This document shows positions 29,689 to 60,146 of a stretch of DNA of 64,000 bases, in pieces. Positions within the stretch are counted from its first letter, which is position 1. Every line of letters begins with the position of its first letter. Made by a program: the position numbers and the translations under genes. Origin of the DNA: Selenomonas sp. oral taxon 920 (lineage in GTDB: Bacteria > Bacillota > Negativicutes > Selenomonadales > Selenomonadaceae). A model generated the notes under the pieces. That model saw nothing but the letters and a program-made list of their open reading frames with translations. It had not been told where the DNA came from and did no database searches. The stretch lies in assembly GCF_001717585.1 (NCBI RefSeq), contig NZ_CP017042.1, positions 595,501-659,500 on the forward strand. The letters run 5' to 3'.

Positions 29689-30132
29689 ATGTTCATGGGG
29701 GAATACGCCCACAGCATAGATGCCAAGGGCCGCATCATCCTGCCCGCCGACTTTCGTCAGGAACTCGGCGTCTCCTTCATCATCACGAAGGGGCTCGACG
29801 GCAGTCTTTTTCTCTTTCCACAGACAGCATGGGACGAGTTTGCGGCAAAGCTGCGCACACTCTCAATTGCGGATCCGAATGCACGCGCCTTTGCACGCTT
29901 TTTTATTGCGGGCGCGCGCACGCTCGAATGCGACAAACAGGGGCGCTTCCTTGTCCCCGCAAATCTGCGTGCCTATGCGAACATCGGACTGAAGCAGGAT
30001 GTCATCCTCACGGGTGCGGATGCGCGCATTGAGGTCTGGGACAAGGAGAAGTGGCTGCGCTATGCGGGTGAGGTCGATCCGAACATCACGGAGATCTCGA
30101 CGCAGCTCGCGGGCTATGGGATTACGATATGA
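29689..30132 (+). CDS. mraZ: Transcriptional regulator MraZ
   Basis: 147 residues with two AbrB-like MraZ domains; the first opens with MGEYAHSIDAKGRIILPADFR, and the second has CDKQGRFLVPANLRAYA. It is a ring-forming DNA-binding protein that controls the division and cell-wall cluster, with its likely operator repeats 29 bases upstream. Translation starts at ATG 29689; the alternative ATG at 29695 would remove only two residues. Its stop overlaps the rsmH start by four bases (ATGA). Confidence 0.95.
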   Translation: MFMGEYAHSIDAKGRIILPADFRQELGVSFIITKGLDGSLFLFPQTAWDEFAAKLRTLSIADPNARAFARFFIAGARTLECDKQGRFLVPANLRAYANIGLKQDVILTGADARIEVWDKEKWLRYAGEVDPNITEISTQLAGYGITI

Positions 30133-56130: not shown

Positions 56131-56140
56131 GGTGATACCG

Positions 56141-56809
56141 ATGGCAGGAAAGGCAATCTACGCCGCACTCATGGCAGTGCAGAGCGAACTGAAAGCACCG
56201 AAGGGGCAGGAGAACACCTTCGGCAAGTACCGTTATCGCAGCGCGGAGGACATTCTGGAGGCGGTAAAGCCACTGCTCAAGGAAAACGGTTTGTACCTGC
56301 GTATCTCAGACACAGTGGAGCTGATCGGCGACCGTTACTACGTCAAGGCAACGGTCACGGCCGTGGACATTGCAACAGGGGACGCGGAAAGTGCGACGGC
56401 ATATGCGCGTGAGCAGACAGAAAAAAAGGGGATGGACGCAGCGCAGGTGACGGGGGCAACGTCCTCCTACGCCCGCAAATATGCCCTGAACGCGCTTTTC
56501 GGAATTGATGACACCAAGGATGCGGACACGGACGAATACACGCGTACAGGGCGTTCTGGGGCGAATCAAGAGCAAGCGAAGAAACAGACACAGCCGCCTA
56601 CACAGGCGCAGGCAACTGCGGTCAATGACGCACACGCAGCGATGAAGGAACTCGCGGCTGAAATGCAGCGTATCAATGCCACGAAGGAAGAAGTCGCGGG
56701 GATTTGCAGGAAGCTGTTCGGCAAAGCCTCCTCGCGCGAACTCACGGCGGAGCAGCTGCGCAAGCTCACGGCGAATCTTGCGGCAGAGATCATGGCAGGT
56801 GTGGCGTGA
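56141..56809 (+). CDS. erf: ERF-family single-strand annealing protein
   Basis: 222 residues. The ERF domain covers about residues 1-130 (YAALMAVQSELKAPKGQ, KYRYRSAEDILEAVKPLL, GATSSYARKYALNALFGIDD). Such proteins anneal single strands for phage recombination and circularisation. A glutamine/alanine/threonine-rich linker leads to a helical C-terminal tail, likely the contact to a single-strand-binding protein. ATG 56141 follows gaggtga; it overlaps the HNH gene through GTGA. Confidence 0.92.
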   Translation: MAGKAIYAALMAVQSELKAPKGQENTFGKYRYRSAEDILEAVKPLLKENGLYLRISDTVELIGDRYYVKATVTAVDIATGDAESATAYAREQTEKKGMDAAQVTGATSSYARKYALNALFGIDDTKDADTDEYTRTGRSGANQEQAKKQTQPPTQAQATAVNDAHAAMKELAAEMQRINATKEEVAGICRKLFGKASSRELTAEQLRKLTANLAAEIMAGVA

Positions 56810-57510
56810 TACAGGAGCGCGTGACTGGCACGGTGAGGGATATCACGGAGGATGGGACAGCGGTCATACACGCAGCCCTGCCCGACCCTCTCCGTGCTAT
56901 GCTGCGGGACTACAAGGATGTTGAGATCATTCTGCCCGATGGACGGCGCATCTCTCCTGAACAGCGGCGCAAGGTGTACGCTCTCATCGGTGAGGTTGCA
57001 GAGTACGTCGACGGCATCCGAAACGCGGGGACGGTCGAGAGTGCGAAGCGGACGCTCAAGATGGAGTTCATGCTCTCCCGCATGGAGGGGATGGAGCGCA
57101 GACTGTTCTCTCTTGCAACCTGCGATGTGACCACAGCGCGGGAGTTCATCAACTTCCTCGTGGAGTTCATCATCGAGAACGACATCCCGACGCGTGCACC
57201 GCTGATCGAGAACTGCGAGGATATCGCCGCGTATGTGTACGCCTGTCTCATGAGCAAGAAGTGCGCGGTATGCGGGCGACACGCAGACCTGCATCATGTC
57301 GATGTCGTGGGGATGGGGCGTGACCGTACGGAGATTTGTCACATCGGGATGCGTGCGCTCCCCCTGTGTAGGGAGCACCACACGGAGATTCACGCGGTAG
57401 GGCAGGAGGGTTTTCTAAAGAGGTATATCCTCGAACCGGTCAAGATTGATGAGCGGATCGCGGATGTGTACGGCCTGCGGGGGAAGAGCAGGAAGGAGGT
57501 GTCGTTATGA
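56806..57510 (+). CDS. Putative HNHc-type phage nuclease
   Basis: 234 residues. The C-terminal part has the zinc-finger and HNH-like pattern KKCAVCGRHADLHHVDVVG, then CHIGMRALPLCREHHTEIH, matching the putative HNHc nucleases found beside recombinases in Firmicutes phages. GTG 56806 overlaps the ERF stop and is the likely start. Its neighbours suggest a role in recombination or end-processing. The next gene overlaps by four bases. Confidence 0.85.
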   Translation: MIQERVTGTVRDITEDGTAVIHAALPDPLRAMLRDYKDVEIILPDGRRISPEQRRKVYALIGEVAEYVDGIRNAGTVESAKRTLKMEFMLSRMEGMERRLFSLATCDVTTAREFINFLVEFIIENDIPTRAPLIENCEDIAAYVYACLMSKKCAVCGRHADLHHVDVVGMGRDRTEICHIGMRALPLCREHHTEIHAVGQEGFLKRYILEPVKIDERIADVYGLRGKSRKEVSL

Positions 57511-57748: not shown

Positions 57749-58054
57749 TTGTTTGTTGTTAAAGATCTGGAACGGCTGAAGGAGTATGGCTTTACCGAAA
57801 CAGGGAGCAAAAACAGCAGAGGAAGAAAAGTTTACTGGAAGGAGGTTGGCGTATCGACAATTGGTTGCGCCACGGCGTATCTCACACTACTCGTGAATAC
57901 AGAAGGGACACGAGAAAATGAAATCATCGCGTGTTGTGAGCCTGAGTTTAGTGATACCGATGATGGCGTGCAGACCGTGATGTGGGCATTCGACGAGCTT
58001 TCTGAGATGTTGCATGATGATGTGATTGTGTGGAGCAAGCTCCCGAGACCATAG
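57749..58054 (+). CDS. Phage protein of unknown function
   Basis: 101 residues from TTG 57749, which is preferred because aggaggtga ends at good spacing before it; GTG 57740 would overlap the previous stop. The sequence LERLKEYGFTETGSKNSRGR then a beta-rich middle is not recognised. Confidence 0.65.
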   Translation: MFVVKDLERLKEYGFTETGSKNSRGRKVYWKEVGVSTIGCATAYLTLLVNTEGTRENEIIACCEPEFSDTDDGVQTVMWAFDELSEMLHDDVIVWSKLPRP

Positions 58055-58069
58055 AGAGAGGTGAGTATT

Positions 58070-58537
58070 GTGAATAACATTGAAACCATGTTCTATAACG
58101 CATGGATTGAACGCGGTGAAGAAGAAAAAAAGCGGGGGATTCGTCCTACGCGAATACGCCCGCAAGTTCCATGCGGTGGATACATCATCGACTTTGTGGT
58201 CGACTACCGTTTCCAGATAGATACGATTAAGGTCGCCATAGAAATCGACGGTCACGAATCGCATAAGACGAAGGCGCAACGCTTTAATGACTACGCTAGG
58301 GAACGCTTCCTTATGGCGAAAAGAATGCTGGTTATTCGCTTCGCAGCGAGTGAGGTGTTCGTTGATGCAGCGGCTTGCGTTAATGAAGTGTGGCAGATTC
58401 TCTACGGATTGGATTATTCGTTCTATGCCTATGGCGGCAAAAAGTTCGATGAAGGCATTCAATTCGAGCAGGACTGGTCATCTGGGCGTATCAGACGCAG
58501 CCCGTATGAACCATCTGCTGTAGAGCTGACGGAGTAG
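58070..58537 (+). CDS. DUF559-like PD-(D/E)XK nuclease-fold protein
   Basis: 155 residues from GTG 58070. The core resembles Vsr/DUF559 nucleases: YIIDFVVDYRF (acidic residue about 41), then IKVAIEIDGHESH (E58, D60), followed by a basic helix (KAQRFNDYARERFLMAK) and VIRFAASEVF. This is the strand order of a PD-(D/E)XK endonuclease. It lies between the recombination and replication genes. Substrate unknown. Confidence 0.7.
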   Translation: MNNIETMFYNAWIERGEEEKKRGIRPTRIRPQVPCGGYIIDFVVDYRFQIDTIKVAIEIDGHESHKTKAQRFNDYARERFLMAKRMLVIRFAASEVFVDAAACVNEVWQILYGLDYSFYAYGGKKFDEGIQFEQDWSSGRIRRSPYEPSAVELTE

Positions 58538-58573
58538 CACCTCCATTCATATAAAAATTAAGGAGGTGAATGT

Positions 58574-59386
58574 ATGCGGCAGTATATGACACTTCTAAAA
58601 TCTTACTATGATTCTAGCGTGGGATTAGTCCCGCCCGTAGCCCAAGCGCTTTATTTCAGGCTGTTTCTCATAAACAACCGCGCCGGCTGGACGGAATGGT
58701 TCGGGGCGACAAATCAGAGACTAATGTTAGAAGTCGGACTAAGTAGTGCCCATACTCTCATCGAGAACAGAAACCTCCTGAAAAGACTAGGGTTCATCGA
58801 CTTCAAACAGGGGAAAAAAGGTCAACCGACGCTCTATCGTCTGAATGATATGTGTGAAGAAAAGGGTGCATTAAATGCACTGAATACTGCACCGCAAACT
58901 GCACTAGAAAGTGCATCAAATACTGCACTGAATACTGCACCGCAAACTGCACACATATATAGACAAGAGACAATGACTAAGACTAAGACAAAAAGAAATC
59001 CAAAAGAAAAAGCTGTCGCTCTTCTTTTGGAGAGCTATACAGAGAACCCCAAAGTTCTTGAAGCACTCAAGGGGTATGTTGAGATGCGCAAGGCGAAGTG
59101 GAGTATACCGACGGAGCGGTCAGTCCAACTTAGTCTTTCAAAGCTCGACAAGCTGGCGCGTACCGATGAGGAGAAGATTGCCATTATCGAGGAGGCTGTG
59201 ATCGGGGAGTGGAAGACATTCTACCCGCTGAAAAAACAGGAGGTGAGACAGGGTGGAGCACATATCAGTCATAGCAAAGGTGCTCTCGACGAGAGGTATC
59301 CAGATTTCGCAGAGGCAAACCGAAACTACGTCCCTCCGTGGGAAGTACGACCTGCTGGCGGAGGAGATCGAGCGGCATCGGGATGA
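58574..59386 (+). CDS. Phage replication initiator with embedded iterons
   Basis: 270 residues. The N-terminal part (YYDSSVGLVPPVAQALYFRL through LLKRLGFIDFKQGKKGQ) is a winged-helix module like those of phage replisome organisers. A four-residue repeat (ALNT-APQT-ALES-ASNT and so on, about 98-125) is encoded by the 12-bp iterons. The C-terminal part resembles DnaD-like helper domains. ATG 58574 follows aaggaggtgaatgt. Its 3' end overlaps the helicase-loader gene by 134 bases in another frame. Confidence 0.85.
   Translation: MRQYMTLLKSYYDSSVGLVPPVAQALYFRLFLINNRAGWTEWFGATNQRLMLEVGLSSAHTLIENRNLLKRLGFIDFKQGKKGQPTLYRLNDMCEEKGALNALNTAPQTALESASNTALNTAPQTAHIYRQETMTKTKTKRNPKEKAVALLLESYTENPKVLEALKGYVEMRKAKWSIPTERSVQLSLSKLDKLARTDEEKIAIIEEAVIGEWKTFYPLKKQEVRQGGAHISHSKGALDERYPDFAEANRNYVPPWEVRPAGGGDRAASG
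58875..58958 (+). repeat. 12-bp iteron array, candidate phage replication origin
   Basis: TGCA recurs at 58875, 58887, 58899, 58911, 58923, 58935 and 58947, an exact 12-bp period, with an extra one at 58866. Units 1 and 5 are identical (tgcactgaatac), and so are units 2 and 6 (tgcaccgcaaac). A/T-rich, purine-rich sequence follows from 58955. The array lies inside the initiator gene, as in lambda. Confidence 0.75.
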
Positions 59387-60146
59387 GATTGCGCATATTG
59401 AGCGCCTGCAAGACCTCTGTCGCGGATGCACGGGGGAGAGCTGCAAGCAGACATCACGGGGGATGATTCCTGTGGTGGATACGTCCTGTGGTCGGTTCTA
59501 CCACGTTCTCAGCCCTTGCAAGCACGAGCGCAACAGGCGGGAGCGCCTGCGGATTGCACGTCTCTTTGCCTCGGCGCATATTCCCCGCGCCTATGAGGCG
59601 GACACGTTCGCAGATTACGAGGTGACGGGCGGAAACAAAGGAGCGGTAGATGCAGCGCGCATGATGGTCGACGGTGAGATCGGCGGGCTGTTTGTCTATG
59701 GCGTGCGTGGGACCGGCAAGACTAAGCTCGCGGCAATCATCGCCAATGAGCGGGCGAGAGCCGGAAAGCCTGTGCTCTTTGCGTCCGTGCCTGACCTGAT
59801 GGCAGACATCCGCGCGTCGTTCGCGGACGGCAAGACGGCGGAGACAGTGCGGGCGGTGAAGGAAACACCGTTTCTGGTGCTCGATGACCTCGGTGCAGAG
59901 AAAATGAGTGAGTGGGTCGGGGAGCAGCTCTTTTGCATCGTCAACCACCGCTATAACGAGCGCTTGCAGACGGTTGTGACGAGCAACTACAGCCCGACGG
60001 AGATCATCGGTCACATGGCGACCGTAGACAGGCGTGGCAACGTGATTGACGATATGCAGGGGCAGCGGATTATGTCGCGCATCTACGAGATGTGTGAGCG
60101 GGTAGAGATACGGGGCGCAGACTGGCGCATGAAAGGAGCGTGCTGA
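59253..60146 (+). CDS. DnaC/IstB-type helicase loader
   Basis: 297 residues. An N-terminal cysteine cluster (C56, C59, C64, C79, C89) suggests a zinc site. The AAA+ part has Walker A GVRGTGKTKLA (about 150-160) and Walker B FLVLDDLGAEK (about 207), then VVTSNYSPTEI (sensor). It loads the replicative helicase at the phage origin. GTG 59253 is nine bases after aggagg and lies well within the initiator gene. Confidence 0.9.
   Translation: MEHISVIAKVLSTRGIQISQRQTETTSLRGKYDLLAEEIERHRDEIAHIERLQDLCRGCTGESCKQTSRGMIPVVDTSCGRFYHVLSPCKHERNRRERLRIARLFASAHIPRAYEADTFADYEVTGGNKGAVDAARMMVDGEIGGLFVYGVRGTGKTKLAAIIANERARAGKPVLFASVPDLMADIRASFADGKTAETVRAVKETPFLVLDDLGAEKMSEWVGEQLFCIVNHRYNERLQTVVTSNYSPTEIIGHMATVDRRGNVIDDMQGQRIMSRIYEMCERVEIRGADWRMKGAC

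Follow-up and report, generated by a model that had tools for sequence, protein, structure and literature searches.

The window, i.e., the whole 64-kb stretch of DNA analysed here (G000:C1:595501-659500), is part of a 2.44-Mb genome and contains at 58574..59386 (+) an ORF of 270 residues that was assigned to a phage replication initiator on the basis of PHROG matches to phrog_678 ("replication initiation O-like", 1.6e-11), phrog_19658 (1.2e-9), and phrog_186 (5.4e-8). A DnaC/DnaI-type helicase loader gene follows at 59253..60146 (+) (phrog_50 6.1e-54, IstB_IS21 1.8e-17), and both ORFs overlap by 134 bp (59253-59386), in agreement with the overlap described in the first-pass annotation of this DNA. 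Further genes of the early region encode an Erf-type annealing protein (56132-56809), a putative HNHc nuclease (56704-57510), and, next after the loader, a PAPS-reductase-domain protein. The ORF situated directly 5' of the initiator gene (58061-58537) codes for a small protein with a MTES_1575/DUF559-type nuclease fold (7.6e-13). A contig of the viral collection contains an initiator gene with 100% identity and probably represents the same prophage. In a crude scan of 75 viral homologues, a Walker-A ORF was located just 3' of the initiator gene in only 24 cases; the loader is thus not a fixed neighbour of these initiators.

Within the initiator gene, seven 12-bp units, each starting with TGCA, were identified at 58876..58959 (+) by TRF, a position list, and run and pattern tests. 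TGCA is located at 58876, 58888, 58900, 58912, 58924, 58936, and 58948, i.e., at exact 12-bp steps. Count and spacing had been given correctly before, with coordinates (58875-58947) that are one base too low, and the sequences bear out the reported identity of units 1 and 5 (TGCACTGAATAC) and of units 2 and 6 (TGCACCGCAAAC). TRF delimits the repeat to 58876-58952 with periods of 12 and 24. An eighth TGCA at 58867 pairs with unit 1 as the inverted repeat GTGCATTAAATGCAC (58866..58880, +), which also occurs in the relatives L003 and L004, and represents a reversed half-site facing unit 1.

Considering all 4-mers and periods of 5-40, the TGCA array is the sole run of at least five copies across the 64 kb. 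The TGCA run did not exceed 2 in 1000 codon-shuffled copies of the gene, nor when the same protein was recoded 2000 times on the basis of the codon usage of its neighbourhood. The pattern TGCACN7TGCAC has five matches in the window, four of them within the array, compared to an expectation of 0.16, and none of 100 shuffles reached five. All eight Ala codons of residues 99-126 are GCA, compared to 58 out of 196 in neighbouring genes. A second array was found neither in the 64-kb window (one isolated pair, at 29880) nor across the genome (one isolated pair). Searching 58000-60000 for DnaA boxes gave a single word with one mismatch at 58069. Chance or an assembly artefact, for which one can only argue that short repeats are generally frequent in genes, is contradicted by the shuffle controls and by the related, reshuffled arrays in two other genomes described below, and its probability is negligible.

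Behind the array, an A-rich stretch is located at 58953..59016 (+) with 30% G+C, 56% A, and a TRF period of 6, which matches the A/T- and purine-rich DNA annotated there earlier and is proposed as an opening region. It contains GACTAAGACTAAGAC (58975-58989), and its 6-bp repeat exceeds codon shuffling. The most A-rich 60-mer of the 64-kb window starts at 58951.

An AlphaFold2 model of the initiator, built with 42 sequences, assigns an N-terminal domain to residues 1-91 (codons 58574..58846, +), which shows the order helix-helix-strand-helix-helix-strand-strand with a pLDDT of approximately 95 for residues 21-90. The recognition helix starts at residue 59, and the wing is situated between strands 75-78 and 86-90. 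Structural comparison (VIA) gave 4pql (Z 10.4, rmsd 5.1, 95 aligned) and 4pt7 (Z 10.1, rmsd 2.8, 85 aligned), tied with TFIIE (Z 10.0); 4pt7, 4pta, and 5kbj are among the top matches. 4PT7 and 4PTA are described as S. aureus plasmid RepA proteins (PMC7145576). Plasmid initiator domains are included in the first structural matches and, together with the predicted fold, support the winged-helix initiator domain assumed at the outset. Foldseek returned no match of the winged helix at E ≤0.001, the best being 0.0043.

At the level of sequence families, the Pfam scan of the window protein gave no family at E 0.01, including DnaB_2, which was matched by 15 of the 42 members of alignment A4. PF13730 (HTH_36) is matched by 11 of these 42 members and not by the window protein. 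The window protein lacks a match to RepA_N (PF06970) even with the threshold relaxed to E 1, and RepA_N is absent from the families matched by the A4 members. In the PDB, DnaD chains were detected with the A4 family profile (8ojj_A at 3.4e-7, 2i5u, and 2zc2). The C-terminal helical domain (residues 143-211, codons 59000..59206, +; pLDDT mostly >90) is related to the C-terminal parts of L003, L004, L005, L262, L252, L010, L047, and others. Between both domains, residues of about 97-141 are predicted to form a disordered linker, which is the part encoded by the array, so that the array DNA would be tunable with little harm to the protein.

Initiators with 78 and 79% identity to that of the window occur in two genomes of the same taxonomic family, G025 and G177. 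The first-pass annotation had named the loss of the repeats in close relatives that keep the gene as evidence against its reading; the array is kept in both, with 7 units in G025 and 8 units in G177. The G025 array shows the unit order of the window, and differences were observed at 0 of 35 TGCAC positions versus 7 of 49 other positions (Fisher 0.038). In case of G177, the unit order differs and one unit reads TGCAT where the window has TGCAC. Across the three relatives, TGCA is invariant in 22 out of 22 units and the fifth base is C in 18 out of 22, with the other positions variable. DNA identity to the close relatives amounts to 92-99% for winged helix and array compared to 69-70% for the C-terminal part, which indicates joint inheritance of DNA-reading domain and array as one block. 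G177 (L004) contains two initiator copies of equal score with the same array (C1:937443-938243, +, and 2277459-2278259, −). Two prophages that are related, or copies of a single one, may thus compete for one and the same replication address.

Searches for homologues in 189 same-family genomes and in 398 genomes across the phylum gave matches in 30 and 24 of them, respectively, the own genome being counted in both, and further homologues were taken from viral contigs (best 80 of 223 relatives). A uniform profile scan yielded 140 hits, of which 11 with less than 70 residues behind the winged helix were dropped, including cut genes that show repeats (L198, L017). The resulting 129 genes were reduced to 76 non-redundant homologues at 80% winged-helix identity. 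Of these 76, 73 contain a tandem array that is significant versus codon shuffling, and the median distance from the winged helix to the array start is 12 nt; L193, with a best period of 6, and perhaps L296, with one of 10, are counted among the 73 on account of A-rich repeats and not of an iteron array. Among controls, the test was positive for three of the 76 stretches that code for the winged helix, for one of 60 gene ends, and for one of 67 stretches located downstream, with 100 shuffles in the main test and 50 in the gene-end and downstream controls (smallest possible P approximately 0.01 and 0.02, respectively). The test is conservative, as lambda O, a true positive, gives a weak 20-bp signal that scores 15 compared to a shuffle maximum of 16.

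The array motif varies from phage to phage, and most periods correspond to one or two turns of DNA. Among the 73 arrays, 53 have a fundamental period of 12 bp, 61 one of 10-13 bp, and 7 one of 21-24 bp. Of eight named phage or plasmid homologues, taken from 5 of 6 plasmid records and 3 of 15 phage records, seven carry an array, among them those from phages of Riemerella, Aeribacillus, and Flavonifractor. Exceptions are given by L201, L216, and L025 among the 76 homologues and by the B. pumilus plasmid homologue L305, for which no significant in-gene array was found. For L201 and L305, an array was not found elsewhere in or near the gene either, and their origins must look different. In the linker region of L009, L024, L031, and L008, palindromic units at 21-33 bp, e.g., AAGGGTTCGAAAAACGAACCC, replace the one-turn direct repeats and are dimer-type sites within the same family. 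L027 contains approximately 21 further 24-bp units (VPLTTKAD-type repeat) behind its TGCA array, at ORF positions 780-1280 towards the C-terminus.

The A-rich element is a common property of these genes as well. In the 73 homologues, the 60 nt behind the array contain on average 45% A and 35% G+C compared to 32% and 43% in the winged-helix part, the A content exceeding that of the winged-helix part in 69 of these genes and the G+C content falling below it in 57. Repeats of 5 to 8 bp such as TAAACTAAACGAAAC go beyond codon shuffling in 44 of 73 cases (5-bp period in 26, 6-bp in 16), of which at least L220 and L022 are not A-rich. DnaD of B. subtilis is described to read TnnT pairs on single strands at its origin (PMC10201434). 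The complement of the A-rich repeats offers TnnT, and the A-rich repeats may represent a comparable single-strand landing site for a DnaD-like C-terminal domain. An enrichment of TnnT was observed for either strand (z 5.3 and 4.7), so that the link to DnaD is a suggestion only.

As a family finder, the DNA pattern alone performed poorly and was rejected. Most matches of the TGCAC pattern in viral contigs are situated in genes other than initiators. Only 3 of 35 pattern loci were confirmed by the profile, i.e., L036 (the same prophage), L045, and L047, and none of 79 further loci (L076-L154) among the matches listed. L037, L043/L056, and L054 have the look of replication genes, as judged by eye only. 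A single-protein search of genome contigs confirmed none of 20 pattern matches. A fourfold TGCAC pattern matched three of the 189 genomes, in initiator genes of G177 and G056 and elsewhere in G002; the reversed control pattern also matched three, and the genome count alone is thus uninformative.

Alternatively, the repeat could have been selected for the protein, i.e., as a flexible (N/Q)TA(L/P) linker grown by slippage that plays no role as a DNA site. This explanation is favoured by the predicted disorder of the linker, by the copy number of 7, 7, and 8 among relatives, and by many viral-contig TGCAC arrays that encode Pro/Thr/Ala repeats in other proteins. It is opposed by the same-protein recodings, which never exceed a TGCA run of 2, and by the constancy of TGCA and, to a lesser degree, of the fifth base among otherwise variable units. 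Furthermore, 11 of the 73 arrays have a best period that does not correspond to a whole number of codons (10, 11, 13, 22, 23, or 35 bp), and the 11-bp units of L013, L022, and L023 pass through all three reading frames. TGCA arrays differ in frame as well: the window, L045, and L047 use frame 2, and L027 and L240 use frame 1. The earlier statement that the 12-bp period forces a four-residue protein repeat does not hold as a design rule, because these 11 periods show that such a repeat is not required.

A similar argument is provided by relatives consisting of the winged helix only (L210-L215 and L217, n = 7), none of which has an array inside the gene. In case of L212, L213, L214, and L215, a 12-bp array that scores above 100 out of 100 shuffles occurs outside the gene (L212:2646-2726, L213:402-455, L214:2943-2986, L215:403-449); the signal of L217 is weak. 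The arrays of L212 and L213 are located roughly 0.9-1.1 kb upstream of the winged-helix gene, the former without any ORF of at least 50 residues across it and the latter with short overlapping frames only. In L212-L215, the 400-430 bp that hold the array also contain four words resembling the DnaA box. By eye, these elements look integrative and carry small cI-like and Xis-like HTH genes. Presumably the out-of-gene arrays belong to the winged-helix protein, and this layout looks like an origin with array and reader apart. Linker selection at the protein level or slippage alone was rejected on frame, period, and recoding evidence, and a repeat selected for the protein is very unlikely, also with regard to the dependence of the motif on the recognition helix that follows.

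The similarity of arrays in 6-mer content climbs with winged-helix identity only above approximately 50% (Mantel 0.155, largest of 500 permutations 0.117). Covariation was scanned in 85 windows of six residues with overall identity removed, and the peak (partial r 0.263) was observed for residues 58-63, where the recognition helix begins. The largest permutation maximum was 0.098 (300 permutations, every second window) and none of the 300 reached the peak, in a test that removes shared ancestry only in part. The top seven windows overlap the 58-63 region, and the eighth (0.115) represents the wing, residues 77-82. The peak position is robust to two alignments and to word lengths of 5-7. When permutations were restricted to clusters at identities of 0.55, 0.60, and 0.65, 0 of 300 reached the peak in each case, the permuted mean being already 0.212 for the 0.65 clusters. 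Upon removal of the two largest helix groups, the peak remained at the same position with r 0.173, which was reached by 1 of 300 permutations.

Specific pairs of helix and motif are SKQGL with TTGACC, SRQGL with GGCACA, and SRKEF mostly with GGGACAAC-like units. Based on the profile alignment, TGCA arrays were found for all three initiators with H60 (window, L008, and L045) compared to 3 of 70 without H60 (Fisher 3e-4), a post hoc lead. Residues in contact with bases would be expected to covary with the motif if the winged helix reads the array, and the covariation observed here is indirect evidence for binding of the initiator to the array in its own gene. In the open-access PMC literature, no report of recognition-helix-to-iteron covariation or of one-turn arrays in this initiator family was found.

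The covariation also bears on a role of the array as an operator, or as the site of another protein such as a repressor or host factor, that controls the initiator and is no origin. TGCA is short, self-complementary, and readable by many regulators, and autoregulation via in-gene sites would be compatible with the sequence. Nevertheless, the recognition helix with which the array covaries belongs to the product of the very same gene, the next independent peak is the wing, an A-rich stretch follows the array as at known origins, and neither prophage window nor genome has a second array. We consider an operator improbable in view of these observations.

Origins inside initiator genes have been described for several systems. 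ORF13 of TP901-1 and Rep2009 of Tuc2009 bind direct repeats in their own genes, which constitute the phage origin (PMC8965321). As in the window, these repeats are located inside the initiator gene, and they score 29 and 28 in our repeat test compared to shuffle maxima of 18 and 17, respectively; the period is 15 bp instead of 12 bp, and the winged-helix profile finds neither protein at a useful E-value. For O of lambda and Stx phages, iterons in the middle of the initiator gene, an A/T-rich tract behind them, and an adjoining loader gene are reported (PMC7466680), all of which are shared with the window; the iterons vary in number (4 or 6). The 18-bp iterons of lambda O, 20-24 bp apart, are unlike those of the window, and the winged-helix family profiles relate to lambda O only weakly (E 0.017 and 0.038). 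The term "lambda-type" used in the first-pass annotation is thus appropriate for the arrangement and not clearly so for the protein. In case of ORF20/ORF21 of the Staphylococcus phage 80alpha, an origin inside ORF20 was inferred from failed trans complementation (PMC5499656). It resembles the window in its initiator and DnaC-like loader; its repeats of 15/30 bp give a clear signal in the repeat test, and the window-family profile does not find it.

Among plasmids, the winged-helix N-terminal domain of pSK41 Rep binds boxes in the middle of the rep gene, and the linker encoded by the boxes is dispensable for the protein (PMC5703833, PMC7145576). pSK41 and the RepA_N group are similar to the window in the winged-helix N-terminal domain, which is predicted in case of the window, the separate C-terminal domain, and the mid-gene repeats. 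They differ in being plasmid-borne and in the iteron form, no loader gene is described for them, and the window protein lacks a RepA_N Pfam match. In pPR9, the N-terminal domain and origin of pSK41 have jointly given way to a phage-like N-terminal domain (pfam13730) and a new origin, and this rep region is able to replicate (PMC5703833). In this hybrid type of Rep, N-terminal domain and origin were swapped as one block, and the PF13730 matches mentioned above are found in A4 members and not in the window protein itself. Replication of pPR9 after the joint swap is an independent sign that domain and origin form one exchangeable block. On sequence grounds, the window gene is placed with phage initiators of the lambda O and TP901-1 kind that carry an in-gene iteron origin, in a family whose period is usually one turn. 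In-gene origins are already known; new are the family of one-turn arrays and the covariation of helix and motif.

Supported by arrangement, conservation, and covariation, the TGCA array most likely represents the initiator-binding part of a prophage replication origin inside the initiator gene, to which we assign a probability of roughly 0.87. Each winged-helix domain would read one half-site of approximately 7 bp (ACTGCAC) via its recognition helix, and seven direct sites and a reversed one at one-turn spacing would assemble several initiators into a cluster. Opening would follow in the A-rich stretch next to the array, and the C-terminal helical domain together with the adjoining DnaC-type loader would bring the host helicase. 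For the window prophage, we infer binding, opening, helicase recruitment, and origin activity from these features.

It is tempting to speculate, with arguments for and against evenly poised, that a large family of "self-addressed" initiators exists with the window gene as one member, in which the initial turns of the recognition helix dictate the sequence of a one-turn array situated few codons further downstream, helix and array undergo evolution and recombination as a unit, and a private replication address results from each pair. If true, a readable helix-to-motif code would be at hand, with SKQGL for TTGACC, SRKEF mostly for GGGACAAC, and perhaps S-x-H-T for TGCA. So far, in-initiator origins have been described phage by phage, and a single search here yields 73 naturally occurring pairs, each consisting of a DNA-reading domain and the site that it probably binds, which are correctly matched since domain and site are joined in one gene. 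These pairs would make the specificity of phage initiators, and the way in which protein and site change together without loss of replication, directly testable. In practice, a one-turn array just behind the winged helix would serve as a rule to locate origins of phages and phage-plasmids from sequence.
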